This document shows, piece by piece, positions 7,260-63,716 of a stretch of 64,000 nt of DNA. This DNA is from Thuidium tamariscinum (taxonomy: Eukaryota > Streptophyta > Bryopsida > Hypnales > Thuidiaceae), in assembly GCA_947034885.2 (NCBI GenBank), contig OX344752.2:30548386-30612385 (forward strand). Reading direction: 5' to 3'. The notes below the pieces were generated by a model that was given only the letters and a program-made list of their open reading frames with translations, did not search any database and was not told the DNA's origin. Positions within the stretch are counted from its first letter, which is position 1; each line of letters opens with the position of its first letter. Both the position numbers and the translations under genes were made by a program.

Positions 7260-8330
7260 AGAGGATTTTTGGGCCTCTAAGAAATTGTTTTAGGATTGTT
7301 CTTGGGTGATTGTAAGAAACACTTGTACTATTTTGTATCACACGTTACATGCAAATCTGTTTTTTGGCTATAACTTTTGTGTTTTGACTTCAATTGACTC
7401 AAGATTTGTAGGGAAGGTACTAATTACTATCATAAACCTTTCATAATTTTTTCATAATTTTCAAAAATAATTTACTATACAAAAATAGACCCCGATTGGA
7501 TGTCATATTGTCACATTTGGTAGTTTAGGGGTTTTAAATACTATGAAGTACCTTTTTTGAATGATTTTGAGGTGAAATTTGAATGAGATGGTATTCTAAT
7601 ATACTTCTAGCTCTCTAGGCAAGGATTTTCAAAAATAGTTAATTTTATGTGGTATGGAGGTCTACAAAGTGAGTTCTCTTCTACTTGTATTTTGAAACAT
7701 ATAAAATATTATTTTGGTGGGTTTTTTCGTGAATGATCATCTCTATAAATTTGTTGCAAATCGCCACTTTTTATTTTTTGAAAATATCTATTTTTACTAT
7801 TTTTTCCTAATTAAAACATGAAGATATGTATTTTCTAGAGGTTTGGCACTTTTCAAGTTTTCCTACTTAGAGAATTTTTCTATCCATTTCCTTTGGTGAA
7901 AACCTTCATTTTAGAAGAATATACATTATTCTTATTTTTTTAATTTTAAATTAATTTTTAAATTTTAAAGTACTCCCGAAAAAATCAACCAAGTGCAACC
8001 AAATTGGCAGATGTTTCTTGCAATCACCGTCCTTGAAATTGTTTCTACTATTGTAGACCAACTTCTATTGGTTTGAATTTTGAATTTTGAATTTCTTTTT
8101 GAATTCCAAATTTTTTAGAATTTATTAAAAATCCAAAAAAATGATTTAAAGAAAATTCAAATTTAAAAGAATTAATTAATAAATAACTCAAATAATTAAT
8201 TAATATTCTCTGACATGTCAATTGCCCAACCCCATTAGCTTGTTGATGTGGCAACATTCACAATGTTTCCATAGTGTTTTTAGCCTTTGGAAACTCACAA
8301 TCTTCTAAACCTGCTAGTAAGAAATCTTCT
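7260..8330 (+). mobile_element. T4 element (TA / AGAGGATTT ends) holding a T3 insertion
   Basis: The left end is TA (7258-7259) followed by AGAGGATTTTTGGG; the right end is GAAATCTTCT followed by TA (8331-8332). It corresponds to the compact copy at 18643-18997 once the nested T3 element at 7305-8028 is removed; the shared inner text runs 'aaattgttt...tagacca...ggtttgaatttt' and a terminal 'gacatgtcaattg' block. No coding capacity is seen. TA duplication suggests a Tc1/mariner-type MITE, but the superfamily is not certain. Confidence 0.65.
7305..8028 (+). mobile_element. T3 element nested in T4, 724 bp
   Basis: Ends are GGTGATTGTAAGAAACACTT and CTTGCAATCACC, an inverted repeat. Flanks GTTCTTG (7298-7304) and GTCCTTG (8029-8035) look like a 7-bp target duplication with one mismatch. 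The intact T4 copy at 18643 reads through this point without the insert, which confirms the borders. Related copies are at 14263-14982 (reverse), 19734-21499, 20101-20855, 21505-22046 and the hairpin form 49561-50653. No transposase frame. Confidence 0.75.
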
Positions 8331-12497: not shown

Positions 12498-14262
12498 ATT
12501 TTTTTTTTTATCAACAAACGAATTCTTTGGTGCCAATATCATTGTATATCATGCGATTATATACTTTTATAGAGTGAAAACTAGGTCAAGCTTTAAAAAG
12601 TCATTTTCGTATGGATTTATTTATTTTATTTATTTTATTTATATAATATATTTGAAGTTTTAAGAAGGCATGATTTTTGGTCAACCACTTATAAAATCTA
12701 TCTTTAAATATGTTTATATAAAGTTATAAAGTCTCTCTTTAAATAACCTTTTTTCTTTGTTAAAATTTATATTTTAGTGAACCAACATTAGACAATAGTA
12801 AAACACCAAACCATGCATCCATACAAATTTAATTTTTCATTGATACTCCCGAGCTATTCATTTGTAATTCTATTCAAAACATTGAAGATTTTTTTATATA
12901 TTGACCAACAATTTTGAAAAATGAGCTTGCAACCATAGAGTGCTTGTGTTTTTATTTAGAATGACATGATAAATAAAGTGATGCACTATGAGATTCTAGT
13001 ATTCTACACTACAATATAAGTGGAGAGATTTTCAAAAAAATTGAACATATTTTGCACTTGTTATAAATTTTTAAATTCTTATTCAAAAATTCATGGTAAT
13101 TTCAAGTTCTTACCAAAAAATTGAACTTTCAATGACTAATAGAAGACTTGAAATTACATATTTGAAAAATGATATTTAAAAAATCAAAATTCATAAAAAG
13201 TTGCAAAGTGAAGTTTGAGAAAATAGTTATAATCTAATTTTTTTCAAGATTATAAGTCTCCTAACTTTAGCTTACAAAGAAGTTTTACCAAATACAAATT
13301 CATTATGGGTCAAATCACACTCAAATGTACCACAAAAGGGGTCAGATACACCAAAATCTACAATGTAACTTCTTTCAATCTATTGTTTTCTAATGCTAAT
13401 CTACTAATTTTAGATAATTTAGTCCTTTTTTATTAGAGCTTCAAGTCATGTTAAGACTAATAGTATTTTATTCATAAAAAAAAGAAAAATTCTTTACTAA
13501 AAATCCAATTGTACTTGAATTGTCAATGCGTCAGCTTTTTAAATGGACAAAAAAGAGTCTAATTTCTAATGAATTATAATGTGATTGAATCCAAAAAAAT
13601 CATATATGTATATATTCATATAATAGAGTAGAAAAGGACATTTTTGACAAAAATTGATTATATTTTTATTTTCTATAATATTCAGAAGTAAGAATTTTTG
13701 AACGTTTTTTTCAATACATAAAATAATCCAAATGATGATTGTGTCAAAACAAAAAGTGTATATATTATTGACATCTAGGTCTCTATATTATTATTTTTTG
13801 AAATTAAATGTTTAATTTTGTTCTTAGAACAAATTAATACTTTGTCAATAATCAATTAATTGATTAAAAAATTATACTATTTTTAGTTTAAAAATCATTT
13901 TCATAAAATCCTTTTTTATAATTGTATACTTGATGAGAATAAAGTTTTTTGATAAAAAGTCTTGCTTAAGTGCTATATTGTAAAATAATTCCTAAATTTA
14001 GCCTGATTTACATCTATTTAAGGATTTTTTCCATGAATTTTTTTTTCAAAATCATCAAAAGAACCCATTGCAATACTACCCATCTATTATTTTCTTTTTT
14101 AAATGACAACATCAAAGTAATTTAAAGCTTTGAAACTTAAAAAAAGGACTCTAGTCATGTCCTACTAAAGTAATGCCTTTGGTACCTTTCAGTGTGTTTT
14201 GACCCTTATGCAAAACTTTGAAGGTGTATATTGCCTAATATTAAAGTAGAAACATCCAGAAG
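12498..14262. other. AT-rich intergenic DNA, nothing recognised
   Basis: Very AT-rich sequence with simple stretches such as a TTTA/TTATT-rich run near 12615-12650. I see no coding exon, RNA gene or element with paired ends. Confidence 0.5.
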
Positions 14263-14982
14263 GGTAATTGTAAGAAACACCTATCAATTTTGTTGTGTTT
14301 TGCAACAATATTCATGATTTTTTTGGAGTGATTTTAAATTAAAAAATTATTTTTTAAAATTAAAAATTATTATTTATTTATATACCTTTAAAACAAAGGT
14401 ACCCAAGAAAGGAAATGCATAGAAATTTTTTGTGATTTGAATAACTTGAAAAGTGCCAAATCTCAAGAAAATAGGTACTTTGATGTTTAAATTAGTTTAA
14501 AATAGTAAAAATAAGTGAATACAAAAGTTTAAAATGTCTATTTGTAACAACTTTATAGAGATGGTCATGCACCAAAAAACCTACCAAAATCATATTTTAA
14601 ATTTTTCAAAATACAAGCAAAAAGAAGCTCACTTTGTAGACTTCCATACTACATAAAATTAACTATTCTTAAAAATCGTTCTCTACAAAGATAGAAGTCT
14701 ACTAGAAGACCATCCCATTTCAAATTTCATCTCAAAATCATTAAAAAAATACTCCTTAGTACTAAAATCCTAAATTGCAAAGTGTGACATTCAATTGGAG
14801 TCTATTTTTGGATAGTAAAATATTTTTGAAAATTATGAAAAATTAGAGAAGGTGTATAATAGTTATAAGTACCTTCCCTATAAATCTTAAGTCATTTGAA
14901 GCCAAAACACAAAAGTGATGGCCAAAAAACATTTCAGCATGCAATGTGATACAAAATAGTACAAGTGTTTCTTGCAATCACC
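14263..14982 (-). mobile_element. T3 element, reverse orientation, 720 bp
   Basis: Ends GGTAATTGTAAGAAACACCT and AAGTGTTTCTTGCAATCACC. The interior is the reverse complement of the 7305 copy, for example the passage near 14880-14960 on 'aagccaaaacacaaaagtgatggcc'. A possible imperfect duplication CAGAAG/CAAAAG flanks it. No coding capacity. Confidence 0.75.
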
Positions 14983-15781
14983 CAAAAGCATCCTTGTTCC
15001 TATTCTTGCACTATAGACTACCACTAAATTTGTTCCTAGACTTTTGTTAATGTCTTCATCAAATGCTTGATTCTAATTTGTTGATGCATTTGAAGGGTAC
15101 ATCTTGAACTTTGATTTGTTGACTACCAGTTTTTGGAGATTTAAGATTAAGATCCACCTATATAGCAATTTCAATGGTTGAGGGAGCCCAAACTTTGAAA
15201 AATCATAGAAATTACATACCACATCCAAAAAATATTTTTTAATTAATATTATGATTATCACTTGTTAATACTATAAAATATTGTTTTTTTTATCAAAAGG
15301 TGCCTTCAACTATGCTAAATTGCTTATATTGTTAGTTTTAGGGATTTTCACTCTACGTCTATTTTTCAAAAAGACCCATGATTATTTTGTATTTGTAATA
15401 ATAAGTTCTCAAATCCAAATGTATAGCCCTCTTACCTCTCTTAGGTCTAGGGTGTTTTTTTTAGGTAAATAAATGTCTAATTTTTTCAAAAAAAAATGGG
15501 CAACTTCAAGCTTATAGAAAAAAATGAGGGTAAATGTGACAAAAAATGACAAACAAAAATAAAAGCCCTCTTTACAATTGCCAACATGCTTCTAAAATCT
15601 CATTTCATCTATCACACAGAGTCAAAATTGCATACAAAAATTACATATTCAAAATTGTATACTCAAAATTGGCCTCCTTCAATTAAAGCCCCCTAAGTTA
15701 AAGAGCCAGTCAACTGAAAACCTTCTTGAAAGGAAGGCCACATCACCATTTGTCTGAAAACCAAAAAAAACACCTTGCTTA
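14983..15781. other. Intergenic, nothing recognised
   Basis: AT-rich sequence with two short open frames (15073-15261 minus, 15281-15472 plus) that have no family features. No paired repeats seen. Confidence 0.45.
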
Positions 15782-18997: not shown

Positions 18998-18999
18998 TA

Positions 19000-19733: not shown

Positions 19734-20100
19734 GGATCATTGCAAGAAAGACTTGCTGAACAACACAGCATTTAATTTGCACAATGCTCATTTTTTTTTC
19801 TTTGGGAGTACCTTACAATTAGTAAATCAATTTTTTTCTTAAAGTGAAATATATGTTTGATGTATATACCTTTAAGAAAAAGGTACTTGAGGAAGGAAAA
19901 GTATAGAAAACATTTTCTAAGTAGGAGAACTAGGAAAGTATAGAATTTCATGAAAATTGTAACTTTCACTATAGTTTCACATTTTATTTCATAAAAAATA
20001 GGAAAAGTAATTTTTTTTAAACTAAACATTCTCCATTTGGAAAGACTTTATGGTAAAGATATTTCACCAAAATAATGATCTAAAAACCATCTTGATTATG

Positions 20101-20855
20101 GGTGATTGCAAGAAACACTTCGCGTTTTTGGCTCAAAATGTTGTTTTTTGGCATAGTACTGGCAGTACTACGCAATCCTGACAATATAGTGCGTTTGATG
20201 CGCACCTGCAAATCTTAAACGTCGATTTCGAGAACTTTCAAATTTGGGCCGTCAATGTAGTACTATGCAGTATTATGCTGTACTCTGAACCACTACAAGT
20301 ACTTCACAGGCCACAGGGAGCAAAAAAATAGCAAAAAAAGGGTCTGTGGACCTTTTTAATTTTAATAATTAAAAAAAAATCAAATTTTTTTAAAAAAAAA
20401 ATGCGTTTTTCTAAACAAAATTGTACATACATTGCAAGAAAAAATTCCTCTAACAAAGTTTTTCCCTCTTCGTAGAGTTTGTACAAAGGAAGGTCACTTT
20501 GACCCCATGTGGACAATAGACATTTTACTATTTTTATAAAACTCATTGTCAATCCTTGAAATGTTAGTAGAACTCCAACTTGTCCAATTTGTGACTTCAA
20601 ATTCGGATTTTTGAGTCAAAAATAGGACTAAAACCCCTCAAAATGGCCAAGGTAGACAGCCAATTGGGGGCAGTTCAAAAATAGTAAACTAATTTTTAAA
20701 AAATTGAAAAAATTATACAACATACAAAACTTTTGTGTGCACCTTCATTCCAAATTTCAAGTTGATAGGGAAAACAATGCAAAAGTTATGAGCAAAAAAC
20801 TACCTATTGGAGGTCAAGGGGACAAAAAATAGGACAAGTGTTTCTTGCAATCACC
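20101..20855 (+). mobile_element. T3-ended element with divergent interior, 755 bp
   Basis: Ends GGTGATTGCAAGAAACACTT and AAGTGTTTCTTGCAATCACC are a near-perfect 20-bp inverted repeat. The left interior (20125-20310) is unlike other T3 copies and contains repeated 'agtact' motifs around 'ggcatagtactggcagtacta'. It may be a distinct subfamily using the same termini. No clear target duplication. Confidence 0.65.
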
Positions 20856-21249
20856 CTTGTTCAAAAATGCGCACGCAAGGGAGGCTTGTTAGCACACATG
20901 TAGAGGAAAGAGGATAATGATTTTTAAAATTTTCTTTGATAGAAACATGCCTACCTAGTGTAGGAATAGAATCTAGAAATCTCAGCTCTAAATCATTAAT
21001 TTAAAGTACTCCCTAGTATTTGAAAACCCTAATCGCAAAGTGTGACAAATTAGCTAAATTTAAATTTAAATATAAAATGATTTTTGAAAATTTCTAAAAA
21101 ATAAGAGCTTTAGTAGTTTGATTACTATCAAGTTATCCATCTCCAATAAAAATTTCAAGTTCAAAAAATTAATGTTTCAAAAGTTATAGCACATGACAAC
21201 TCTGTCACTTAAAGTGTGACGCCAAATAGTACAAGTCTTTCTTGCATTT

Positions 21250-21504: not shown

Positions 21505-22046
21505 GGATGATTGCAAAAAACACCTATACTATTTTGCATCACACAATGTGTGTGCTAATATGTTTTTTGGTCATAACTTTTGTGTTTTGGCTCTAAATGA
21601 CTCAAGATGTACAAGGAAGTTACTCATAATTATTATACACCTTGACTAGTTTTTTTTGTAATTTTGAATTAGTTGACTATTGAAAAATAGACCCCAATTT
21701 AATGTCACACTTGCCAATATGGAGTTTTTTAGTACTATTTAGCACCCAAAAAAACTAGTTTTAAGTTGAAATTTGGAAGAGATGGTGTTCTAGTAGACTT
21801 GTAGCAAGTGACAAAAAGAATTTCTTAAATAATTATTTTTATATTGTGTAGAAGTTCTCAAAGTAGCCTCTTTCTATTCGCATTTTGAAACATGTAAAAA
21901 ATGATTTTGGTGAGTTTTTCTTGGTGAATGGTCATCTCCATAAACTTAAGTTGTTGCAAATGTTCAATTTTTATTTAAATTAATTTTTATTTTCTATTTT
22001 TTTCAAATTTAAACATCAAAGTATGTATTTTCTTGAGATTTGGTAC
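21505..22046 (+). mobile_element. T3 element, right-truncated
   Basis: It begins GGATGATTGCAAAAAACACC and follows the 7305 copy closely (for example the passage near 21550-21610 on 'ggtcataacttttgtgttttggctc') up to about 22046, where it meets the reversed dispersed repeat. The right terminus is missing. Confidence 0.65.
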
Positions 22047-22447
22047 TTCTCTCTTAGAACCACCCATAACTAATCAATTAAAAGGTATTCTAGACATGAT
22101 TTGGTGTAGTGTAATCAAAAGTAATATTTTTAGAGGTGCAATGATTAAAATGACAGGGATTGTAAGAAGTTTGGTAATTGTATGGCATGAACTAAAATTA
22201 CTATGAATTTTTGAAAGGCCAAAAGTGATGTAGATCCATTGCCAAAGAATTGTTTTTCGTTAGCAATCAACACTTGCCTATTTTTTTAAATTTTTATTTG
22301 ATCCAAAATGATATTTTTGATCCATTTAAAACTCAAAAGTCTACATTTGAAATATACATGTGTGTAACTTCTATAATTCATCATTCACCATAAGATGCAA
22401 TGTTATTTCTAGATTATAAATTTGTTCATAATTAGTTAAATAGGTGA

Positions 22448-25892: not shown

Positions 25893-26353
25893 ATGTCGAA
25901 CTAAAAGTTTTTTTTTCTGAATCTCAACATGAAGAGCCTCAATCGATGGCTGAATTTGAACTTCCATTATCAAACCTGTTAGATCAACCGCTTCTACTAA
26001 GAGATCTTATATTGTCACGTGAGCATTGTTTAGATGAAACTGGGTTTTTTTGACCTTTGAAGTAACCTCGTGTGGAGCAACAGTGGCATGAAAACTTTTA
26101 ACATGATGCTCAAGCTTTAATGATCTTGTTACAAGTAAGGTGTGTTGAGCTTGGAAGTCGTAAAGTGACATTTGAAAAGTGTTTCGAGGGTTTAAATGAC
26201 GAATAATATTTTATTATGGTTTGGCTTATCGAAGGGAGTTGCGGTCATGAACGATGGTTAAAAGAGTTGGTCAATCCCTTAATAAAAGTGGATTGTGATG
26301 ATTATGTTGTCGCGACAATCAAATGCATTCTTAAGTTTCTGCAGATGGAGTGA
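25893..26353 (+). pseudogene. Decayed copy of the repeat-encoded 152-codon frame
   Basis: It corresponds codon by codon to 36930-37388. There is a stop at codon 4 and further stops where the other copy has CAG, CAA, CGA or TGG codons, mostly transitions at C or G. It keeps an intact TGG at the position where the younger copy has TGA, so the two copies complement each other for inferring the ancestral length. Confidence 0.6.
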
Positions 26354-35319: not shown

Positions 35320-36730
35320 AGATATAGGTGCCACTTTGGACCTAAAGACCACTGGAAAGTAATTGTTCATGATATGGATGCTTTGTTACATTCCACTCAA
35401 AAGAATCAAAAGAAAGTGGTAGAAAAAACAAAAAAATGAGGGAAGAAAGTCATTCTAGAATATGATGCATTCAAAGCTAGTAACACCTCTAAAGGGAAAA
35501 AGAAACGTATAGGAAAAAATGAGTCTGGAATGTCTATTAAGCATGGATGCCAACGGTATGTTATTGTCAAACAACCATATTTAGACAATAGTATTTTCCA
35601 AATTATGTATTATCAAACGGAACATGTCAACAAAGAGGAAAAACATTATCATGGGAGTATTGTAAGAGGATTTTGACATGCTATGGGTAGCACCCTTTCT
35701 GATAACATGAAGAAGCGTTTGTCTACAATGTTGAATCTAGGACTATCACCATCCCAAGTGATGGCTCAACACAAAGTAGATGTGCGTGAAATGGCTATTT
35801 TGAATATGCCTATTACTTGAGATATATTTGTAATGCATGAAGATGTGCAAAATTTGTCTAACAAACTTGCAATAGAGCTTTAGCAAAAGCACCTGAGTGA
35901 CCCTATTAACGTGAGCATAAGGGATCAAGGAAAATCCAACTAGTGTTTTCTATTACAAAGAACACGCATTACTAGACTTGAATATAACAATTCAAGATGA
36001 TGTCCCATTCACACTAGGAATACAAACGGAGTGACAACTTGAAATGATGGTGAAGCATGGGCATGGAAGTGCACTTGCATTTGATATTACATTTGGTACT
36101 ACAACGACAAGAGTAAGCTTGTTTATTTACTCCGAACTTCTTGAATTACTGCATGTTATTAAACAATTGATAGTTCAATGTTCAAATGTTTTAACTCTTA
36201 TAATTCTTTGTGATTGTCATGTAATATCCATTTTATACAATCATGGTCTTCGATGAATGGCGGAATGATATACTAGTTGGTTTTTTCATCATCTCTAGAA
36301 CACAAGAAAAAGACTTGCAAATTGTTTTACAAGAATTGAAAAATACAGTGGAGTTTAAAGCTTTGGGATGGAGGCCAAGCTCAATAATTGTAGACAATGC
36401 TCAAGGCAAGATAGACATTCTTAGATTAGTTTTGCAAACTTGTTTGATTTCAAAAAGTCTTCAAGTTTCATTTGAAAATTCAATATTTTTCATTTTGTAT
36501 ATGGATCCTTTCTTCATATTAATTTGTGCTCTTCTTCATTATTTTCATATAGATCAATTTAGCCCGAGGCAAGGATATTTCTATGTCTTTGGCATATTCG
36601 AAAAAGTTGGGCTGAAAATACGGTGAAAAAGATCAAGATAATTGAAGAGAGAGCATTCATTCTAAAGGCACTTGGAGATATAATGTATGGTACAAGAATG
36701 TCTAATGACGACTCTCCTATCAAACGGTGT
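35320..36730 (+). pseudogene. MULE transposase pseudogene, 5' part
   Basis: Mutator-like transposases cut and paste DNA with a DDE-type RNase H fold. A first block (35325-35900) begins CHFGPKDHWK and can be read in one frame if four stops are ignored: 35437, 35674, 35818 (TGA) and 35881 (TAG). The catalytic part follows in other frames: GHGSALAFDITFGT (first Asp, near 36060), VFDEWRND, then SSIIVDNAQGKID (second Asp, near 36390), and CLWHIRKSWAENTVKK (the family's CxWH motif, near 36590). The frame shifts more than once. The gene breaks off near 36730, where the 2.7-kb repeat begins, and resumes near 39490. It is clearly inactive. Confidence 0.75.
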
Positions 36731-36864: not shown

Positions 36865-36929
36865 CACGATTTTGCCTTCGAGTTTCATTGAATTTCGTTA
36901 GTGAGTTTAGTTTCCACATTAGAATTAAA

Positions 36930-37388
36930 ATGTCGAATTGGAGGATTTTTTCTGAGTCTCAAGATAAAGAGCCTCAACCGGAGGCTGAATTCAAACTTTC
37001 ATTGTCACAACTACCGGATCAACCTCTTCTGTTGCAAGATATTGTATTGCCACGTGAGCATCCACGGGATGAAGCTGGGCTTTCTCGATCGTCAAAACAA
37101 CCTCGTATGGAGCAACGGTGGCACGGGAACTTTCAGCGAGATGCTCGAGCTTTGGTAATCTTATTGCAAGTTGGGTGTGTTGAACCCGGAAGTCGTGAAG
37201 TGACATTTGAAGGATGTTTTGAAGGTTTAAACGATGAACAATACTTTGGTATGGTGAGGCCTATTGAAGGAAGTCGCGGTCACGAACGATGATTAAAAAG
37301 ATCGATGAATACTTTGACAAAGGTAGATCGTGCCGATTATATCACCGCGACAATCAAATGCATCTTCAAGTTTCTGCAGATGGAATGA
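36930..37388 (+). CDS. Unrecognised protein encoded by the 2.7-kb repeat (one in-frame stop)
   Basis: The frame begins MSNWRIFSES and ends KCIFKFLQME, 152 codons, with one TGA at 37290. In the older copy the same codon is TGG (ERWLK), so the stop is a G-to-A change and the ancestral protein was continuous. The N-terminal third is acidic and Gln/Pro/Leu-rich; the middle (RWHGNFQRDARALVILLQ, about residues 62-79) is probably helical. No transmembrane segment, signal peptide, zinc finger or catalytic motif is visible. I do not recognise the family. The TATA-like element upstream and conservation of the frame in two copies argue that it was once expressed. A gag-like or accessory protein of a retroelement is one possibility. 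Confidence 0.5.
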
Positions 37389-37690
37389 AGCTTTGATTGA
37401 AACTCTAGTTTTTTACCTCTAGTATACATTTATTGAATATTAGTTCTTAATTTTATATTTTCAGTATTTTATTTAAATCACAATGTGTGATTATAAATGT
37501 AGAATGAAGATTTTGTGATAAAAAAATTAGCTTGAGGTTTGATGATAAGGGAGAGTGTGAATGGAGAAGTCATTGGAATCTTAGATGGGGTCTTGGTAGG
37601 GGTATAGGCTGATGTAACCCACCCCCTCACTTATGATAAAGAGGAAAATAGGGAAAAGATGCTTAGTGGTGTATAGAGAGAGAGAAGTGT

Positions 37691-37938
37691 CATTAGAAGA
37701 AATCCCTGTTATTTTCAGTGCAGCACGTTAGGTAGATTGTATTGAGGCCGCGTTGTTGAAAACGTAGAAAAAACACAAAAAACGCAAAAAAATGCGTTTT
37801 CTGTGTTTTTCTATGTTTTTTCTTCGTTTTTTCAGCGTTTTCAGGGTTTTCCTGCGTTTTTAGCAATGCAGTCTCAACACAATCTACCTGGCGTACTGCG
37901 TTGAAATTAACAGCGTTTTCAGTGTTTTTCTTCTAGTG
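37691..37938. mobile_element. T5 CACTA-type foldback MITE, 248 bp
   Basis: TGT lies on both sides (37688-37690 and 37939-37941). The ends CATTAGAAGAAA and TTCTTCTAGTG pair, and long inner arms around GGTAGATTGTATTGAG also pair. The centre has repeated 'aacgcaaaaa' and 'tgcgtttt' text. The older copy of the 2.7-kb repeat lacks it, so the insertion is younger than that copy. A 3-bp duplication with CACTA ends fits En/Spm MITEs. Confidence 0.75.
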
Positions 37939-39490
37939 TGTGTATGTATTTTGGGGAGTTTTTTTGGCCAAATTTCGAGTTGATGTAGCTCATTGAGCAT
38001 GAAGAATTGAGTGATGAAATTTTGGCATAACATTCCTTGTGTTTAAAGCTTTTCAAAGAGTGTTTACAAGTTGGATTTGAAATTAGGAGTCAAAAGTTAT
38101 GAGAGCTTGAAATTGTGAAGACTCAAGGATCTTTATTGAGAGGTCAGAGGCTTCAACAAGCTATAACTTTTGCAATACTTGTTTGTTTAATTTGAGATTT
38201 GGAGGGTGTATTTTATTTGTAAGTATCTTTTTTTTTAAATATGATACTTTCTGTTTAGAGTCTGTATCAAAAATTTATGAGGTGACAAAGTTTGGAGTGG
38301 AGTTTGGACTTGAAAGAGGGAGGTCATATCTTCAACACCTACAACTTTTGGTTAGTTTCTTTTATGGAATTAAAACTTTGAGACATGATAGATCATCATT
38401 TTATCTTTTCAAATTGAATTTATTTATATGAATTGGAGTTGTAATGCAAAAGTTATGTAGTATCAAAGGTTGAGGAATTCCATACCTTCTTATTTGAGAA
38501 GGCCGAAACTTTACCTCTCATAATTTTTGAACAGTATCTTAGATCATTGTGATATTTTCACAAGTTATAAATATTAGTGAGATCTTTCTAAATTGCTCTC
38601 ACACTTAGTGTTTGAAGCTTTCAATCAAAAGTTATTGAGATTTAAGGAGACAATGGTTGGTTAGAAAGAAGAAAAAGGACCTCTACTTTGTTCTTATATA
38701 ACTTTTGGACAGTATCTTATAATAAGCTCAAATTTTGTAAGTGATTAGTTTGTGCTTTTAGATTTCTAAATTGCTAAAGCACTTAGTATTTGAGTTTCTA
38801 GAGCACCTGTAACACTAGATGGAAGGTCGCATCTTGTATGGAACTTAGTTTTACTTAGTTCTTGTTAGGATTTCTTCAAGTTTGAAAGTGAAAGAAGTTT
38901 TCAAGACTCAAGGTTGAAGATTTGGGACTCAAAAGGGGAGAAGATTGAAGATTCGTGTGTATGGCTTGTGGCTTGTTTTTTTTAGCCGGTTTTGGAGGCT
39001 CGTTGTGATTTTCTTGTTTTTCTCAGCCGATTTTGGAGGCTAGTTGTTATTTCAATTTTGCATTTTAAATTTGGTTGCGAGCTATGGAGTCATTCTTATG
39101 ACAGTTATTAACCCCATTTCTTGTTTGTGGCGACGAAGTGCAATTGATCACCCACATGGTCGATCTTCTATGTTGTTCTTACCGGTAAAAGGCACTTCCT
39201 GGTCACCGTAGGTTTAAAGTTTAGGAGCCATTCTTTCGGACGGTCAGCTCGTGGTTTGGCGGTCCCATTTTACCCGTCCGAGGACTTGTTTTTTATTACA
39301 CACCTTTACCTTATTCCTATAGAGCCACTACATGATAGGCCTATGGAAGATTCAAGTAAAGATTGAAGTGAAGATCGAGTGAAGATTCGAGTTTTCGACA
39401 TTACTTGTCACTCACTCAACGACTTGCAGCTAAGCATCGCGCGTGTTTCTTAAGCGTGCTCTTCTCTACTCGACAACGGGCACAACGTCA

Positions 39491-45870: not shown

Positions 45871-47779
45871 AAAATGCATAATGAAAGGTCGGGTGTTTTC
45901 AGTAAGATTTTCTTAAAATCATGTGTCTAGGACGCGCTTTAAAATACATGTTTAAAATTCAAGTACAGGTCTTTTAATCAGTTTTAAGTATGACTTATAA
46001 ACCGCCAGACTCTGGATAAATGAAAGCAATTTACTTCGCTGGTGTGGAGGTTTCTCTGCGATTCACTTTTGTAATTTTAAAAAATGCCCCTCCTCTCGAC
46101 ACTTGGCACATGCATAATGGACTGTATACACTTTTGCATTCCTCGTCAACAACAAATCATAGCATTGAATTCCGACCTACAATCAATTTATATACATTCT
46201 CCACGTGTCCTGTGAATTCACCCTCGAAGAAGGTGGAACAATTTAGGCGTAAGGTTTTTCAAAATAGAAATTCCTTTATTGAAAGTGCTTATTTACTGTA
46301 CAAGTTCAACTGCACTTGAGTAGGTGTGCTTGTCTGTGCTCCATGCATCAACATTGAAATAGGTAGTACATCTGCAAAGAAAACTATACGGCACATAGAG
46401 TTGCACCTTAACACACAAAATGTAGTTTGTCTACAAGGTCACAGTTTTTGTGAACATTGGCAGTACTAAATCAATACTTGATAAAGCCGAATAGCATCGA
46501 TACCCAACATTTCAGTTTCCTTGTTTGCATCACATCTGCAGTAGGCTTTGCAGCAGTGAATCCGGTCATACTATTGTTTGACCAGTGGCTTCTTTCAGTG
46601 TTCAGTTGTTGGCTTGATCCGTCCTGTTGGGATGGGACAAGCTTCAGCATATCCAATGCTTGTGTATGAAGTCACTTTCACGCCGCACCAACCTTTGGGA
46701 ATAACTTTCCTGGATAATTTAGATCCAAACAATCCCATAACGATGCCCTTTCTGATACCATTCCAAGACTTCCTAAAAAATGACAATCAAGTATGGGAAA
46801 AAGAGTTATGTGCTCCACATTACACGCAAAGATTTAAACCCTCCCACTCTTCCTCTCATGCATGTGAACAACCCTCACTATACTTCTCTCTGAATTTGTA
46901 TTTTCAGTTTTGTTGAAACTCAGTACATAGATGAAGATCACAATATTCTATAGACTCAACCATTTCGTCAAAACATGAGCCCTAGTATCCATTCTAATTT
47001 CACAAACACAATCAACTTCAAAACTCAAGATATCTGACCTTCAACTCCTTCATGGCATCCTCTAATTCACTTTGAAGTACTCGTCGTGATACATGCAGTG
47101 GCAAACCCGACCTCTTCTCTTCACTTTTTCAGTTTGCTTCCACCTCCTCCGACAGTTTCTTGACTACATCTTTCATGGTCACAACATGAAGGGTATTTGT
47201 AGGCCTCTTGTTTTCCTTCATTCCCTCTAAAGCATACCATATGCGCATAAGGACAAGGAGCCTGACAATTAAGAGTAACATTTGTGCATCAAGGACACTT
47301 TGGTTCCAACTCAAAAACAAAGTAAAAGGAAATGTTCTATTCGTTGTTTTGAGTTTCAAAACATGAAACTCTTCTCAGTGCATGAACTACAATCGCCCAG
47401 TTCCTAAATCATTTGGAGTTCCTCTGCATCTACAATGACAAAATGTCGATCCACATTCTCTTGCATATATAATATTTTACTCTCTTCCTCTCCAATTCTA
47501 TATATGTCCACTTACTACAACAAATTTGAAACAGAACTTCATAATAATCTTCCACTTTTTATCAGCCATAAGTTCCTTTTCAAGTTTTGGAATGAAGTTC
47601 ATATTTTGAATCAAACGAAAGAGCAAAAACTAACCTCTTTCATGTCCTGAAGACATGCTGAAGCGAATCTCACGTCCGCATGCTGTTGTGCTCCTCCACT
47701 GACAATGACACTTGTATTGTGGTCCTTGATAGACGATCCCCTCATTTGAAGCTTCTCTGATGGAAGTGACGACTCTTAC

Positions 47780-49560: not shown

Positions 49561-50653
49561 GGATGAATGCAAGAAACACTTAAAGCCTTTTGTCACACCC
49601 TAGTTTTTTATTTTTATTTTAGCCATAATTTTTGTGTTTTAACTCCAAATGGCTCAAGATTTATAGGAAAGCTACTCATAGCTATTATGTATCTACATCA
49701 CAATTTTGGAGATTTTTCAAAAATCATTTATTATTTTTAAATAGCCCCAAAAATTTCTCACAATACTCAATTTAGGGTTTTTTAGCACCACTTATCTCCA
49801 AAAAAACGAATTTTGACCTAAAATTTGGAGAGAATGGTCTCTTAGTAGACTTATACCTACTGTCCAAAGGAATTTAAAAAATACTTATTTTTAAGTGTTG
49901 TAGAAGTCCACAAAGAGAGCTTCATTTTGCATTTTTTTCCAAAGGTATAAAACATTATTTCGGTGATTTTTTTGGTCAAATCTCATCACCAAATTATTTT
50001 TTCAAGTTTTTATTTTTATGTATTTTTCAAAAAGAAATTCTATTTAAAACAAATTAAAATTTGACAAGTTGTATTTTCTTCATCAGAACTTTGGACCTGG
50101 AATTCTCATAGAATTCCGGTGAAGAAAATACAACTTGTCACATTTTAATTTGTTAAAAATAGTACTATTTTTTTGAAAAATAAATAAAAATAGAAAACTT
50201 GAAAAAACTTTTTGGTGATGAGATTTGATCAAAAAACTCACCGAAATAATGTTTTATACCTTTGGAAAAAAATGCAAAATGAAGCTCTCTTTGTGGACTT
50301 CTACAACACTTAAAAATAAGTATTTTTAAAATTCCTTTGGACAGTAGGTATAAGTCTACTAAGAAACCATTCTCTCCAAATTTTAGGTCAAAATTCATTT
50401 TTTTGGAGATAAATGGTGCTAAAAACCCCTAAATTGAGTATTGTGAAAAATTTTCGGGACTATTTTAAAATAATAATTATTTTTTTTTGAAAAATCTCCA
50501 AAATTCATTATAGATACATAATAGCTATGAGTAGCTTTCCTATAAATCTTGAGTCATTTGGAGCTAAAATACAAAAGTTATGGATAAAATAAAAATAAAA
50601 AACTAAGGTGTGACAAAACACAACAAATAATACAAGTGTTTCTTGCATTCACC
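49561..50653. mobile_element. T3-derived long hairpin, about 1.09 kb
   Basis: The left arm (49561-50083) and right arm (50119-50653) are reverse complements over about 520 bases with few mismatches, separated by about 35 bases. The outer ends GGATGAATGCAAGAAACACT and GTGTTTCTTGCATTCACC are T3 termini, and each arm matches the left half of an ordinary T3 element. It is therefore a foldback derivative made of two inverted left halves. A transcript would form an almost continuous double-stranded RNA. Open frames (50165-50398 minus) are incidental. Confidence 0.9.
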
Positions 50654-52209
50654 CTCTTGTACTATGAAAAGTTGTAGTCAGATTTCTCTTAGTGTAGGTA
50701 TAGACATTCAGCTTGATAGGAAAACTGATTGTGTAATTATTCCTATGTCAATTTCATACTTCGAAGTCATCCTTTAGGAATGGTCAAGGTGAATTGGCCT
50801 CCTCACTCGGGCGGCTTTGCCACTCCAAGTAATTTTAGCGGTGCAAGTAAAACAAAAAGCCCCTATTTTGTGCTTAATGAATTCACCTAATGTACCCCCG
50901 TGAAGTATTTTGGGGTCTCTAATTGCAAATATGAATTGAGAATTTGAAAAAAAAAATATTGCAAAAAATAAAAAAATTCCAGCATTTTTCTAAGTAGTCG
51001 AGCGAGGGGGTCAGTTCACCCTGGCCTTAGAAATGGAGCAGTTGTGAATAAGTTGCTGTCATTGGAGTGTGCACGTTTGCGGAAGACGGAGCTTACACAA
51101 ACCAAAAATAGTCCTCTCTTCGGTCTTTGGTCATTTTCATCAGCTTTGTCAGTGGAAACTATGAAGAGTAAAAGTAACCGTTTGTGGAGCCAATGAGAAG
51201 CAAGTGCAAAAGGCTAGTGCTCTCATTATTTTCCTTGCTCTATGGGAGAAAGCGTCCAATGACAACAGTGCCATGTCATGATGCATAACTTTATCCCCAA
51301 TTCCCTAACAAAGGATATCAGCCAAAAAAGAGGTGACTTAAAATGCAATGTCGGTCACTGTTTCCGTGACTAATTAGCAATACCGTACTGAACTTACTAC
51401 ATGCAACTACTGTTTGTGACTTTCTAGTAGTATAAAGGAAATTTCAGTATTTCCTTACTAATCTCCTATCTTGAAAATACCCACTCTTCTTGTAGTGCTT
51501 TCTTAATGAATTGAATGAATGTAGAAGTTCTTGAACATACAAGTTTTTCCAAAACATATTTGAAGACAAAACTTCATTTTTTTTAAAAAGCTATAGAAGC
51601 CTACATGTATAAGTTTGGACATATTGAACTTCTAATAGGTGGATGTATTCATTCTTAAATTCTAAGATAAAGCACTTCAACAATTTAATCTAAAAGATAT
51701 TATGGTTGTTTTTAAGAAAATATTGATGAATTTTGTAAGTTCTGACTTTGTTCCTAGAAGAAGTTGCATATATGATCTATTTGTGCAAATTGGATTTTTT
51801 AAATATATTTATTAAGATCGTAACGTCTCATACTGTAATAGAGCCTTTGCACTCCTTTCTACATAAAAGTCAATTGAGTTTCAAGGAAACTACAAAATTT
51901 GTATTTATAAAAAGTATTTGAATTTTTATTGTATTTAAGATGTGGCAATGATACAAGGTACAATATTGGAATTTGAAGTTAATTTTAAACGGGCCATTGC
52001 AACTTTGTAAGCCCCGCAAGTAATTTGGAAGTCCAACTTCAATTCTTCATATCTTCATTTTATATAATTGTAAGTTCAATTGGTACAAAGTAGATCCAAT
52101 AGTTTACATTAAACTTCATTTAATTTTTTTTTTAAATTGTGCAAATTGTAATTTTTATTATACTTTAAAGATAGTACATAAAGAGCTCAATAATACAACA
52201 CTCTTGAAA
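50654..52209. other. Intergenic
   Basis: A less AT-rich part (50760-51400) contains no recognisable exon. A CACTA-like reversed end (cttcttgtagtg) lies at about 51487-51498. The rest is AT-rich and featureless. Confidence 0.4.
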
Positions 52210-54256: not shown

Positions 54257-56993
54257 ATGCTGCCTGCGTGCGGGCATAGCCATTGGATTACTGGCACTCC
54301 TGGCCTTTCTCCTGTGATCCCATTTCGTAATCCTGCGTTGACGCCGCGGCTGCGTAATGGCCGTCGCACGTGCGCAAACGGGCGACAAGCGACGCTTGTT
54401 GCGTCTCTACAAGTGCAAGCATCCGGAGAATCGTCACGCCCCTTGATAAAAATGTGCGGGATCACGAGTGCAGAAGATGCAGCCGCAGCTGCTCTCGCGG
54501 GGGCGGATTACGTTGGCATGATCGTGTGGCCGAAGTCCAAGAGGTCTGTGAGTGTGAGTTTGGCAAGGGAGATCGCGGCTGCGGCGAGAGAAAACGGTGC
54601 AGAGCCGGTTGGTGTGTTTGTGGATGAGAGTGCGGTGGAGATCGAGAGAGTCTGTAGTGATGCCAATCTCGCCATCGCCCAGGTTGGCTTCTGAACTTCA
54701 CAGAAAAATCGTTTGGAATCACAAGAGAGGGAAAATCATTATGTTTGGTGTCTCGTCGACGAATTAGCATATTGAGAAAAGTTTCGCTTTCATGTGAAGT
54801 ACACAAGTGCTTCTGGTTTAGGGTTTTTGGCTCGGGAATGCTGGAATGAGGAAGTTTAATTAGAGGTTCCCTGGTCGTGATTGAATTTCAGAGAATAACC
54901 CTGGTCATCACAGGATTGTGAGAATCATTTTGCTTTGAGCCTTGTCAACGAATGAGCAAATCGAGAGATGTTTTGCCTTCCTCTGAAGTATGCAAGGGCT
55001 TAGAGTTAGGGTGTTTGAATCGGCAATGCTGGAATGAGGAGGTTTAACTAAGGGGGGGTCTTTGTCGTGATTGAATTTCAGAGAATAATCCTGGTCATCA
55101 CAAAATTGTGAGAATCATTTTGCTTCTAGTCTTGTTTACAAAAGTTCCCCCTTGTACTTCATTGTTCAGGTGTTTCGGGGTTCTGATTCGACCTTTCTTG
55201 AGTGAGGAAGTTTAACTCAGGGGATCGTGTGGCAGTTTGAATTTCAGAACATGATACTGGCAATCACGAAGGTGGTAGAATTATACTTCAATTGTGTACT
55301 CGATGAATTATTCTTTGGGTTTTCAAACTAAGAGAACCTTTCTCCTCCATCTGAGTTGTGCCAAGTTGCCAAGTTTAGGGTTTAGGGGTTTTGGATCCTT
55401 ATTCTAAGTTGGACTTTGGGGTGTCAGGGTGCAAACAGAAGAGGCGGCTCTCAAACGCGATTTTGATTACTCTAAGCTCTGGGTACTGTATCTAGGATTA
55501 GATTCTGGGGATTTGAATTGCGTGGGGCAAAGTAGAAAGAAATTTGTGAAATCTTGCATTAGAGGTTGAGTTCTGCGATACCCTTATAGGACACAATTGG
55601 GTTTGCGATCAGCCATGCCATCACTTTGTTCGTCTCCAAATTCGGCTACGTGCATTCTGAACTCCATAATCTTGTCTCCATGCACTCGCTTCCTCGTAGA
55701 GATTTCAAATCGGGTCACACCCAATGGGATTTTTTTTAGGAACCTGATTCTGAAACTTCCTGCTTGTGCTCGCCAGCTCTGATACCCCTGATGAGCAAGT
55801 TTTACTCACATGAGACTAGTCGAGAGTTTTTGCTGTGAGTCAACTGCGAGAGGTTTTGCACGAGGGGACAACAAAGCTCTTTCAGGTCTTGATAGTGGTC
55901 TTGGGGCTTACAGTTGCACGGTGATGGCGCCAGAGCATCTCTTCTGCAAGGTTTACCCGCGTCCTTGAAGGTGATCTATGTGTTGCACGCCAACCAAAAT
56001 GGGGTCGTTCAAACTTCCTTCCCCCGAAGTGAAGGTGGTCCTCTCGTGGACTGGGTGCTGGTTGATGGCTTACAAGGGGGCAGGTATGCACGACTGACTG
56101 GTTTCTAAATTTTACTGTTTTTTTGGTCTTGAAAGTGCGTGCATCTGTAGTGCCGAAATGAAATGCTTGGGTAACCCGTCGCTTATTGGTGATTTGGATA
56201 GGTACTATGAAAATAAAAAATCAAGAGTTATTTTTCTGTTTAGACGCTTTAGAGGTATAAATTTAAAAACAGAATTACATATTTTGGATTGTCTTTGTAG
56301 TTTCTGTGAAGTTTTGAAGTGCGAACTTTGCACCTGAATTCTCCATCTTGTCATTCTTGGGCCTTGCCCCACCAAGTAGCACGAGTTAGCGAACTAGGTC
56401 CATTAACTTTTGTAGTTGGAAGTCAAGCAAGGTATTGTGTGATCGCACTTGAAAGCTAACTAATCGGGAGTTGGGCTTTCAAGTTAGCAAACTGCTACCG
56501 CTTGGTTTGTGTGGGCGGATTTCGCACTTCGAACCGTTGGTTTTGGCAGTGTGAGTTGACTTGGCCGAAATTGGCGGATTCAGTGGTGTAGAGTAGGCAC
56601 TGTGAACCCTATTTCAGATATAACAGATATGAGATCTTAGATTCAGATTCATGCTCTTGAGATCTTGGAAGCAGATTTTGGAGAAGAAGCCTAGGTGATT
56701 GAACTGACTGGTGCTTTGCACAAAATGCGTACACAACTTGCAGTGGGGAGCAGTTTGATTGGAGAAATTTTGAAGTTCCGAGTATGAAGAGCAGGAGAGG
56801 CTGGCTTTTGGCGGGGGGACTGACTCCAAGTAACGTTGCCACTGCTCTTTCTCTCTTAACTCCCAATGCTGTGGATGTTTCTAGTGGCATTGCGGGGTCT
56901 GATGGAGTCTGTAAAGACCCTGCTCGTATTCGAGCCTTTGTTCAGGCAGTGCAGGATTCTAGCTTGCTTGTACAGGACAAGTTGTCACGGTGA
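54257..56993 (+). CDS. PAI: Phosphoribosylanthranilate isomerase, plastid type (three exons)
   Basis: This enzyme converts N-(5-phosphoribosyl)anthranilate to the carboxyphenylamino-deoxyribulose phosphate, the third step from chorismate to tryptophan, in plastids. Exons are 54257-54682, 55914-56083 and 56744-56993, joining to 281 codons in phase (donors CAG|GTTGGC and AG|GTATGC; acceptors TTACAG and TTGCAG). Residues 1 to about 63 are rich in Arg, Ser and Thr with almost no acidic residues, as in a chloroplast transit peptide. The TIM-barrel blocks are IKMCGITSAEDA (catalytic Cys), GADYVGMIVWPKSKRSV, VGVFVD, LHGDGARASL, DWVLVDGLQGG with SGEQFDW (catalytic Asp in VDG), GWLLAGGLTPSNV and VDVSSGI (phosphate binding). 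The stop TGA at 56991 overlaps a donor-like GTGAGT, but the family normally ends here. The gene appears intact. Confidence 0.93.
54690..55370 (+). repeat. Tandem repeat of about 165-190 bp in intron 1 of the isomerase gene
   Basis: Units recur with the landmarks 'ggaatgagga-gtttaa', 'gattgaatttcagagaataa' and 'ggtcatcaca': one unit begins near 54840 and another near 55028, with more diverged units before (54700-54838) and after (55190-55370). About four units in all. The repeat lies inside the intron and does not affect the coding frame. Confidence 0.7.
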
Positions 56994-59059: not shown

Positions 59060-62000
59060 GATTCACTAGGGTCCTCCAGACCTTGGATTGGAGTTTGTAG
59101 CCTTCCATACCTAGTGGAACACTGGATTTGCACTTAGAGACGATCCACTATTTACACTGTTCATGTCGCTTCAGGCTCGTGGTTCTTGTTCGTTGGCATT
59201 TACCAATTGTTGGTTTTGTCAGGGAACCGGAATCGGAACCAAAACATAAAATCTTTTTAAGTTAGTGGAGTTTAGAAGAACTTCACAGAGCAATTGTGCG
59301 TAGATTTGGAGAGGTGGGAGTACTTGCCGTTCTTTGACAAACGGCCTGATAGTTTACCGAAGGGCCGAAAATTTCCTGAACTCATATTTCAAGCTGCTCA
59401 ACAATGTTGGGTTGCAATATTGGTATTATCTGAAGATTTTTTCACACGGACAAAGTGGCCCATGCTTGAGTTGGAGGCATTTGTACAATCTCAAAAAACT
59501 AATCTTGGAAAACTTGCCATTCTCCTTGTGTATTTGGGACTCTCCCACAATGAATGTACAGGAAATGAAACAAGATGTCAACATTGGCTTTCTGTGTGGA
59601 GAGGTTGGGCCAAACATGACCATAGGATTGATGTAGGCAAGTGGGAGGATGCATTGAAGGTATTGGGTCCTTTGAGTACATGAAATCCTTGGGTGAAGTT
59701 GTATTGAGAGAACAAACTGTGAGTGCTATTTGGCACCTACTTCCACCAAAGAGCTTATGGAGTGATGCACATGTTGAAGGGAGAACATATATACTCAAGC
59801 TGAGAAATTTTTGTGAATACAATGGTAGAGGTTATAAATGTGAATGCTCTTGGACATTGCATGGGATGCTTGCTATTGGCATTGGAAACATGGTTTATGT
59901 AAATTAGGAAATTGATGTACAAAAAGACCAATAGTCCAATTGTGGGATTTACTGTTGTCATTTCTTTTGTCCATGCCAACCTTGGTCTACTTGTATACGA
60001 TTCCACTAACTTTATGGAATGCAAAAAATCATGTCTAATTTTAGAACATGAAGGCATGTAATTTGGTTGACTTGGTTATTAGTGGCAACTTTGAATGATC
60101 TTAGGTGGACTCTTAGACTAAAAAAAAACATATAGTCACTACAGTTTTTCTAGATGAATTTCTTTGGGCCAAAGTAATTTGAATGAGTGTTTCCAACTCC
60201 TAGCTACAACATATGTTTGAATGAAAAGTATCCTCTCTAACTTATTTAAAATGAAGTTATATATGATTTAATCCTCCACACATTATTGAGCTCCTTATAA
60301 ATAAGAAGTTACAACATGATATAAAGCATAATTGAAGTCCAATGTTCCCACATTAATTGTAATAAAAAGTGTAGGGTGAACTATGCAATAAGAAGTAGTT
60401 GCCTAAATAGTTGTAAGCTAATTAACATTGCTTTTGCTTGAATGTAGGCTATAATCAACATGTTCAAGAGTACAAAACCATCTCCACTTTATGGTGTTCG
60501 TATAGTGGGTCTTTATGGTATGGGAGGAATTGGAAAGACCACTTTTTGGAGAGCACTTTGTGATGAGTTGCATATGAAGTTCAAAGGGAGAGTATGCAAT
60601 GCAGAATTGGGTAGTAAGACTTTGATTGAATTGCACAAGGAAGTGTTGCAAAAATCGACTAATATAAACCATGACAACTTGATGTCTAAGGACAAATATA
60701 TGGTTAGTTGAGCATATCCCACCTATATTGAATATGATGTTGATTGGGTGTGATGATGTGTTTATATTCTAATACCTTAATCTTAAAGAAGGTAATAATA
60801 GTTTGGAATTAAAAGTAGTCAACCCAATGTATCAGAGCTTTACATCGTCTTAGAAAAGAATGCTACTTATGGATCTAAAATTGTGCTATTGTAGACTATG
60901 GATCTTCTTAGATGACATCTACATCAACACCAAGTCATCTTGGCTGTAGATAATGTGTGTCAAGAGTTACTAGAACAAGTCAAGGTGTACCTTAGGGTAG
61001 GTTTTCATCCTAGCAACATTGTGATGGTGACGGCTCGCTCTATTGATATACTTGATTACTTAAATATCATCAAAAGTGATTGTCTAGAAAAGCCTAATTT
61101 GGAAGAAGATGCAAAGCAAATCTTTCTTCATAGTGCTACACCTTGCCTTCAACTCATAAGTGAAGGTGATGAACAAAAAATCCAATATTGCATTAGGCAA
61201 TGTCGTTTTCACTAAGGTGCCAATATAGAAGAGCATTTTCATCCTTTAGCACTCAAAGTTTTGGGTGCTCAATTGGGAAGCCTTGGATGCTATCCAAGCC
61301 TTTGGATGAAGAGTTTATCTAAAGATGACAAATTCAACCACTTTCGACAGAAGGACCATCTAATATTCAACATCCTCCGGAAAGGTTACAATTCATTACT
61401 TAAAAAGGACCAATTTTTATTCATGGATGCAATTCTTTTCCATCCATCTCAAAGGTGTTCATCTATTGATAAAGTATTTGTAACTGACGTTAGATTTGAA
61501 GATCATATTTTTTGTCATGATATTTATGAATGGTTAAGCATCGTGTACAACTTGTTGGAAGTGAAGTTCATTAAAGATCGGGTAAGAATTTTGAATAGTG
61601 ATTATTTGAATCATTTGTCTTTTGCAATTTAATGCATCTAGACTTTGTTTGAATCCACTACAACTATGCATTAAATTTTTAGATAATCAATTTGGTTAAC
61701 AAAATTTGTACTACCTTTCTATGTGTTTTTTTGCAAAAAAGTTGGTGTAACAAGGATCCAAGGTCAAGATAGTAAATAAGGTTCTTGAACGATAATCTCT
61801 CCATACCAAAGTAGAGGCAAATTTCTTGATTAATTTGGTTACTTTTATATTTTGGCCTTCCCAATATAGTGTTGTGTTGTGTATTAATTGCAGTTGCAAG
61901 CTTTGAAGGCTAAGTCACTAATTGAAGATATCAGTGATGGTTTCAACAATGTCATTGTTCACAACTTGTATCTTGAGTTTGTCAAATCCGAGGTGAAGAA

Positions 62001-63716
62001 GGGTCCTCTAGATGCCAGATGTTGGATGTGGTATGACAAAGAAGTCGCATATCCTGTTCATCTAGCAAAGAGACTTTAACTTTTGGTGCTTCAACTTTTT
62101 ATTGGTAGGAATGAAGTATTGGATTTGCAAGGTTGAATTTACAATGCCTCAAAAGCCTAGAACTTAGGTAGAATAATGAAGGCTGTAAAGGTTATAGAAG
62201 TAGAAGCCAACTAATTGGACATGGAAAGTTGAGGACACTAGTAGGAACCCCTGTTTAATGTGACAAGCCTAATTTTTCTTGACGGATTTTGCTAGGCATT
62301 AAAAGTAACAACCCGTGTTTTTATGTCAACAAAAACGTTCAACCCAACATCAATGCTGACATAAAAACATGGATTGTTACTTTTGATGCCTAGCAAAACC
62401 CGTCAAGAAAAATTAGGCCTTATCACATTAAACGGGGGTTTCTACTAGTGGGAATCTTGAGTGGCTTGACATGCGAAACATTCATTTTGCCCCGTGTTTT
62501 CAAGAAATTGGTCAGTTGACAAGGCTTAAGGTTTTGCGGTTTAATACAAATTGCTTTGATGAAAGGTGGGATACGAATTGTTGTAAAGAATTCCTACTCT
62601 CGGAGCCTTTACAACCACCAAATCTTAACAAATGCATTGAATTACAAAAACTTGTGCTTGAATGCACATGTCTTATATCATTTCCAGATTTGAGCAAGTT
62701 GACATCGTTGAAAAAGGTTTATCTTTCACAGATGCAAGAATGCAAGAGAGGTGGTTGGATTGAGCTCGCAATTGACTTCCCTACATGAACTCTTGTTGTT
62801 TGATTGCATTTTGTTAAGCAAATGTACCGATTTGAGTGATGTCATTTCATTGCAACAACTTCATGTTCAACATTGTTACGAGCTTAGTCAAACTCTTGAT
62901 TTGCACAAGCTTACAAAGCTACGACGCTTGCATTTAAAGTTAGACAATTTCAATAAGTTGCTAGGGTTGAATGACTCCACGCAATTGTAGGAACTTAGTC
63001 TATGCAATTTTGCAATTGACAACTTGCTTACTTTACAAGTGTTGAAGCATTTACAATGGCTAAGTATGGAATTTGTAAAGACTACAATGATGCCATGTTT
63101 TGACAACTTCATTGCCTTCAAAGAACTCATCCTCAATCATTTGCCAAAGGTTAGGCACATACATGGCATACTTTTGTTGACAAGGTTGAAAAGGTTGACA
63201 ATAAGAGATGCCCCTGATCTATTACAATTGCCTAAGTTGAGTGACTTGATGGCATTACAATACCTCCACCTAAGTGATTGTTGTAGTTTAGGTGGGAAAA
63301 ATGAATTATCAAATCTTTACAACCTCACGAATTTGGAAGTTTTGGAGATTACCTACACCCCAATCAGGAGGATACCAAACTTGCAATGCCTTACGCAACT
63401 CAAGGAGTTGCATTGCACTAGAATTTTGTTGGCCAAGTTACATGTTCTCAATGGTTTGGACAAATTGGAGTCTATCAACCTTTTTGATTGCCCTAAGTTG
63501 ACAAGCTTGGAGAGGGTAGGAAGCTTGCTTGCATTGACTTACATCGATGTTTTAAGTTGTTCTTGTTTGACGAGGTTGCTACATTTTAAAAGCTCTAAGA
63601 ATCTAAGGTTTCTCATCATTTGTTATAATGGAATGAGTCTGGATCTAGAAGACATTAGAGCCCTAGCAACCTTACTGGCACTCAAAATGTATAGTTGGGA
63701 CCATATTTGAGTGCTC
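59060..63716 (+). pseudogene. TIR-NB-LRR resistance gene relic
   Basis: TNL proteins are cytoplasmic or nuclear immune receptors that sense pathogen effectors. TIR: ELHRAIVRRFGEVGVLA and then FFDKRPDSLPKG (59276-59360) with a 1-base shift, continuing WVAILVLSEDFF; another shift near 59670 before EYMKSLGEVVLREQTVSAIW. NB-ARC: P-loop GMGGIGKTT (about 60520), kinase-2 VILAVDNV (about 60935), NIVMVTARS (61015), and HFHPLALKVLG (61240). A good intron runs 61582-61893 (GTAAGA...TTGCAG). LRRs follow to 63710. In-frame stops: 61213 (TAA), 62077 (TAA), 62134 (TGA), 62169 (TAG), 62988 (TAG); a frameshift near 62750; and a MITE at 62236-62450 inside an LRR codon. The N-terminal start of the TIR domain is not clear. 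Not functional as it stands. Confidence 0.85.
62236..62450. mobile_element. T5 CACTA-type MITE inside the LRR exon, 215 bp
   Basis: GGA lies on both sides (62233-62235 and 62451-62453). The ends CACTAGTAGGAACCCC and GGGGTTTCTACTAGTG pair, and the arms continue (ttttcttgacggattttgct against agcaaaacccgtcaagaaaa). Removing the MITE and one GGA joins KLR to NLEWLDM, restoring the leucine-rich repeat in frame, so the borders are exact. Confidence 0.88.

Follow-up and report, generated by a model that had tools for sequence, protein, structure and literature searches.

A foldback repeat built from T3 sequence in moss DNA and its probable origin by inverted duplication

The strongest of 12 close inverted pairs in a 64,000-nucleotide stretch of Thuidium tamariscinum DNA (hereafter the window) is a 1094-base inverted repeat at positions 49561-50654, whose two arms are facing copies of the same portion of a short repeated element, T3. 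We regard it as probably a large but ordinary foldback, MITE-like derivative of T3, a non-autonomous DNA transposon, most likely produced by one inverted-duplication event. Foldback or long-TIR derivatives of DNA transposons exist in plants, and hairpin RNA arises naturally from transposon derivatives of palindromic form, which are thought to feed the siRNA and miRNA pathways of plants; the repeat belongs to a known kind of element. The features discussed below are listed in Table 1.

Table 1. Parts of the inverted repeat and other T3 stretches in the window
Feature	Positions	Strand	Remarks
Left arm	49561..50088	+	T3 1 to ~535, T3 5' end outward; BLAST 89.7% inverted match
Centre	50089..50113		~25 bases by BLAST alignment
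Right arm	50114..50654	-	Inverted copy of that T3 portion, T3 5' end to the outside
Terminal motif GGATGAATGCAAGAAACACTT, left end	49561..49581	+	
Terminal motif GGGTGAATGCAAGAAACACTT, right end	50634..50654	-	
Outer 41 bases of right arm	50614..50654	-	Possible T3 3' end remnant (uncertain)
T3 copy A1	7304..8029	+	726 bases, within copy of repeat E
T3 copy A2	14262..14983	-	722 bases
T3 copy B	19734..20856	-	Broken by several hundred inserted bases
T3 stretch x	20857..21248	-	Partial, diverged
T3 copy C	21505..22060	+	Clear T3 match ends at 22051, ~T3 position 550

Inverted arms account for 528 and 541 of the 1094 bases, as in a foldback element. Aligned by BLAST, the left arm matches the right arm, read inwards from its outer end, at 89.7% over 542 columns; paired with itself end to end and with gaps counted, the whole repeat reaches 88.7% over 1112 columns, with a bit score of 1407. 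The runner-up in the set of 12, which was limited to spacers of at most 3 kb and E ≤ 1e-4, has a bit score of 239. Without gaps the arms are 92-93% identical. An alignment carried to the centre contains 564 columns with 494 matches and 36 mismatches (93.2% without gaps; 19 transitions and 17 transversions), together with 10 gap events covering 34 columns in all, and a second arm alignment, taken from a multiple alignment, gives 45 mismatches. The initial annotation had described a near-perfect inverted repeat of about 1.09 kb: the inverted repeat is there, but 'near-perfect' is generous at 88.7-93.2%. Because the 36 substitutions and 10 gaps are spread along the arms, an assembly or fold-back read artefact is unlikely. 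We also considered recent gene conversion in the middle of the repeat, where the arms share their longest exact run (90 bases), and found the case weak, since 3.9% of 5000 shuffles reach such a run.

The middle of the repeat, put at about 35 bases in the initial annotation, is shorter by BLAST (Table 1). It holds GGAATTCT-CAT-AGAATTCC, which makes a small hairpin around a loop of 3 bases; the whole repeat therefore comes close to one palindrome, with about 14 extra bases on the left side of the centre. The inner 621 bases have a predicted fold of -388.9 kcal/mol in the form of one long duplex, compared with a mean of -112.1 kcal/mol (standard deviation 6.4) for 20 shuffles of the same bases; the resulting z of -43.5 excludes chance for the repeat. 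The expectation that read-through would give long double-stranded RNA agrees with this modelling, a long duplex being predicted for any transcript through the arms. The sole stop-to-stop ORF of at least 75 amino acids in the repeat (50168-50428, minus strand, 87 amino acids) is without a Pfam match, and the repeat is thus short and non-coding in the manner of a MITE. The observed/expected CpG ratio is 0.26 in the repeat, 0.54 in the window and 0.59-0.75 in the repeat's flanks. However, depletion is common to the T3 family, with ratios of 0.08-0.43 in four other T3 stretches, and says little about the repeat itself; the TNL region has a ratio of 0.32.

Five T3 stretches occur in the window besides the repeat. 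T3 is clearest in A1 and A2, where it forms an element of 722-726 bases with 21-base inverted ends (GGGTGATTGCAAGAAACACTT), the terminal inverted repeats of a MITE or non-autonomous TIR transposon. Compared with GGRTGATTGCAAGAAACACTT, the 21-base motif has 0-3 mismatches in A1 and A2 and one at each end of the repeat. An exact search for the terminal motif gave no match in genome_contigs and viral_contigs, two collections without plants, and no mention of two 17-base motif strings was found in the literature searched. A1 interrupts a copy of another repeat, E, two other copies of which read on without T3, and this comparison indicates that T3 moved in the past. When the A1 flanks are joined, E continues with about 5 extra bases, and TTCTT/TCCTT, with one mismatch, is a candidate target-site duplication. 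A2 has similar candidates of 5-7 bases, off register, so short duplication matches may be due to chance and the A1 candidate is weak when taken alone.

No transposase tied to T3 was found in the window. A1 and A2 contain no stop-to-stop ORF of at least 75 amino acids; three ORFs of this size lie within B and C or overlap them, and all lack a match in Pfam. Mutator-like (MULE) elements create target-site duplications of 8-11 bases; none of this length was found above our thresholds at the repeat or at A1, and a candidate of 9 bases at A2 is off register and carries 2 mismatches. A weak MULE transposase fragment at 36225-36623 (E = 0.0024, below the Pfam cut-off) has no tie to T3; it adjoins repeats at 36897-38544 that are common to 25859-27253. 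The E family, which starts near AAGAGGATTTCTGGGCC, is present at 18640-19000, at 23464-23760 and around 7250-8360, the last copy being the one that is split by T3 and that offers a comparison of filled and empty sites. At 20857-22060, two T3 5' parts stand head to head around about 256 bases that include tandem and inverted short repeats, and a T3 end motif with 5 mismatches lies at 21480-21500, with 4 bases separating it from the T3 end at 21505.

Alignment of the arms to A1 (T3 positions 1 to 533-543 of 726) and to A2 (1 to 519-534 of 722) bears out their T3 origin. The repeat had been thought to consist of two T3 halves; each arm in fact covers about three quarters of the element. Both arms end at about the same T3 position, the exact stop being blurred by low identity near the centre. 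No T3 sequence from beyond position ~535 was found at the repeat at a significant level. In A1 and A2 some 190 bases more follow this point and lead to a 3' end of the copy's own. Within the window the arms are each other's nearest relatives: in the multiple alignment, identity is 0.916 between the arms and 0.641-0.673 between the arms and A1, A2 and C, and in pairwise local alignments the corresponding values are 0.922 and, for A1, A2, B, C and x, 0.655-0.750. At 64 of 524 ungapped columns both arms have a common state that differs from that of a unanimous outgroup of three. Among the 45 arm differences in the multiple alignment, 22 fall on the left arm and 14 on the right, with 9 unassigned. 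Arms that are 92% alike and only 64-75% identical to other T3 sequence are better explained by one duplication in a divergent T3 lineage, or by a foldback subfamily, than by two insertions.

How might such a structure have formed? We infer a single inverted duplication, caused by an aborted gap repair or a template switch at a T3 copy or close by, which would have set the first ~535 T3 bases back to back without the rest of the element. The product would have had the T3 terminal motif at both outer ends, and so may have been mobile if supplied with transposase. Ageing would have followed, and has left the arms different from each other at about 7-8% of sites. A search within 3 bases of the termini detected no target-site duplication, so any movement of the palindrome as a unit is conjectural. 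Just beyond both ends there is a weak inverted match, equalled by 1.0% of random pairs over 30 bases and 1.5% over 40, and by 4.6%, 8.1% and 33% over 60, 80 and 200 bases; the duplication could have taken in flanking DNA, or the match could be due to chance.

A possible alternative, to which we give a substantial but smaller share of belief, is that the repeat belongs to a foldback subfamily within T3, with long TIRs, whose members either move in palindromic form or have lost the interior between inverted ends of ~535 bases. The arms would then have been made long ago and the repeat would be one copy among several. The terminal motif at both ends is consistent with this, as is the separation of the arms, as a lineage of their own, from the five other T3 stretches. 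Copy C points in the same direction: its clear similarity to A1 (C 1-547 with A1 1-551) simply stops, as would be expected if some 540 bases were a natural T3 module, of the sort found in a long-TIR or foldback subfamily. In comparison with A2, on the other hand, a weak tail of 42-65% identity continues beyond T3 position ~550. The common stop of the arms, which may mark a natural module boundary of the family, thus weighs less as evidence for a one-off duplication. C's stop therefore lowered our confidence in the single duplication a little, to a moderate level, raised that in the foldback subfamily by about as much, still well short of even, and lifted two separate insertions barely above negligible. 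Further palindromes with near-zero spacers in the window (62236-62450, 22450-22654, 928-1174, 27478-27559 and 18739-18776) would also suit a foldback subfamily. Against such a subfamily we count the lack of a target-site duplication at the ends of the repeat, the absence from the window of a second palindrome of the repeat's sequence, and the greater length of A1 and A2, which carry 3' ends of their own. A single inverted duplication remains the reading that we prefer.

The right outer end of the repeat may add a detail to this origin. Nine bases near the end of the right arm are absent from the left arm. Counted from the outside, positions 28-41 (TTTGTTGTGTTTTG) repeat the 3' end of A2 exactly over 14 bases and in the same register, and these are the two places in the window where the 14-mer occurs; inspection by eye gives 9 of the 14 bases in common with A1. 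Over positions 22-41, 15 of 20 bases match the A2 3' end, compared with 8-12 of 20 for five T3 5' ends and with 10 and 5 of 20 for the 3' ends of A1 and B, respectively. The identity with A2 suggests that the right end may be a T3 3' end joined at TTTTG. In that case a T3 copy would have kept both of its differing ends (the 5' end on the left, some 41 bases of the 3' end on the right), with the interior rebuilt as an inverted 5' copy through a switch at TTTTG. We consider this unlikely rather than implausible: bases 22-27 resemble the T3 5' end, the 3' ends of A1 and B match poorly, a 9-base tandem slip accounts for the pattern equally well, the wider match to the A2 tail is not significant, being reached by 10.8% of 241 random stretches (300 draws, from which 59 near A1 or A2 were dropped), and the A1 tail has no match at the repeat. 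Were the chimeric right end real, the repeat would be the fossil of a failed gap repair from which, in a single step, a hairpin gene both mobile and targeting itself had arisen.

Could siRNAs from the repeat act on the other T3 copies? If transcribed, the repeat would give a hairpin RNA open to DICER-LIKE cleavage into siRNAs. The initial annotation saw in it a potential silencer of all T3 copies in trans, a claim that our comparison of the repeat with the T3 copies in the window does not support. Not one of the 1074 21-mers of the repeat has a perfect match in A1, A2, B, x or C, and the longest exact stretch in common with other T3 sequence is 14-17 bases. Within the repeat itself, 124 of the 510 21-mers in the left arm recur without mismatch in the right arm. 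With up to 2 mismatches allowed, 14 (A1), 30 (A2), 8 (B), 9 (x) and 8 (C) of the 1074 21-mers find a match, compared with none for shuffled targets (one for each stretch); the numbers for the 1071 24-mers are 1, 14, 1, 3 and 1 in the same order. On these counts, the window's other T3 copies would be poor pairing partners for siRNAs from the repeat. Looser pairing is common, up to 4 mismatches being found for 33-229 21-mers per stretch (196 of 1074 for A1 and 229 for A2) as opposed to 0-12 for shuffled targets, so partial targeting of T3 copies is possible. Closer T3 relatives may exist elsewhere in the genome. With arms so far diverged from the window's other T3 copies, silencing, if active, is expected to be local or limited to the repeat's own lineage: the siRNAs would act mainly on the repeat itself and on close relatives within its T3 lineage. 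The duplex predicted for the arms makes the repeat possibly a local siRNA source. Silencing of such restricted reach would set a bound, open to testing, on the notion that an inverted repeat keeps its whole family in check.

The model for that claim was Mu killer (Muk) of maize. Passages of PMC3440606 describe Muk as a locus whose ends both stem from a single MuDR end and which carries an inverted piece of the transposase gene, comprising about 1.3 kb of inverted mudrA. The layout is alike in that, in both cases, a part of a transposon next to one of its ends is duplicated in inverse orientation around an inversion point. What fails to carry over is the close match to targets, the T3 copies in the window being too divergent for perfect 21-base pairing; another difference is that no transposase sequence was found here. 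We therefore find it highly improbable that the repeat is a Muk-like trans-silencer, in which read-through hairpin RNA would give siRNAs against all T3 copies, even though the predicted duplex is very stable and the arrangement around the inversion point resembles that of Muk. At most 30 of its 21-mers come within 2 mismatches of any of the five T3 stretches, and no transposase was found in the T3 copies of the window. In a Pfam scan that covered 33 of 105 ORFs, the nearest ORF above the curated cut-off starts at 54239 on the plus strand, 3.6 kb beyond the right end of the repeat, and points away from it. The Muk mechanism itself is less clear-cut than the borrowing implied. Transcripts of Muk have been shown, some reading through from or into the flanking gene, but according to the same passages the flanking-gene read-through transcripts came from plants that failed to silence; short antisense RNAs are proposed there, with a possible contribution from longer hairpin transcripts (PMC3440606). 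This part of the account leaves read-through as the basis of silencing disputed, not settled.

Lowest of all we place two independent T3 insertions lying tail to tail by chance, for which the window does hold several T3 copies but which the sister relation of the arms (92% alike, compared with at most 75% to any other copy) and their common end position disfavour. CACTA-type ends just outside the repeat (TGACTACA...TGTAGTCA) were also considered and rejected, as there is no CACTACA/TGTAGTG there and no matching duplication.

Comparison with other described inverted repeats places the repeat among familiar structures. Inverted repeats of such kind can yield siRNAs in plants (PMC12595863, PMC7649420, PMC10004981). 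For Arabidopsis, the review PMC12595863 counts 634 of 885 inverted repeats at 3 kb or less from a gene; of these 634, about 68% are probably derived from transposable elements and some 486 make 24-nt siRNAs. The MITE-derived repeats of plants described there are, like ours, short derivatives of DNA transposons with duplex-capable arms and genes a few kb away; they yield 24-nt siRNAs, which for the repeat here are a possible product, and no target-site duplication was found at it. In foldback and long-TIR derivatives such as Tetris, Galileo and nematode Tm1, the inverted arms likewise make up nearly the whole element. The long inverted repeats of rice that are likely sRNA precursors (excerpts of PMC7649420) also have inverted arms, a short spacer and a possible hairpin RNA; however, the rice arms measure about 7 kb and come with sRNA data, compared with 528 and 541 bases here.

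The window as a whole has a GC content of 33.7% and looks like plant nuclear DNA. No Rfam family matched at gathering thresholds anywhere in it, and a PDB search with the ORF at 46560-46913 gave no match. TIR-NB-LRR-like gene pieces lie at 59276-63707 on the plus strand, with TIR and LRR above the Pfam cut-offs and NB-ARC more weakly at E = 0.036. For the TIR piece, a PDB search finds the TIR domain of flax L6 (E = 4.4e-05). There are also a GNAT acetyltransferase ORF at 17035-17577, an eRF1-like fragment at 5755-6261 and a PRAI-like exon at 54239. Next to this exon, at 54734-55125, a unit of about 190 bases is repeated in tandem (2.1 copies); at a guess, it is possibly a duplicated exon piece. 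The second-best palindrome of the window, at 62236-62450, measures 215 bases, is 85% self-complementary with almost no spacer and falls within the TIR-NB-LRR-like region. Two repeats of about 1.1 kb, at 213-1342 and 22261-23359, form an inverted pair with 80% identity, and each contains a palindrome (928-1174 in one, 22450-22654 in the other). Finally, a tandem array at 27756-28078 has a 48-base unit in 6.7 copies and can also be read as 3.2 copies of 96 bases.
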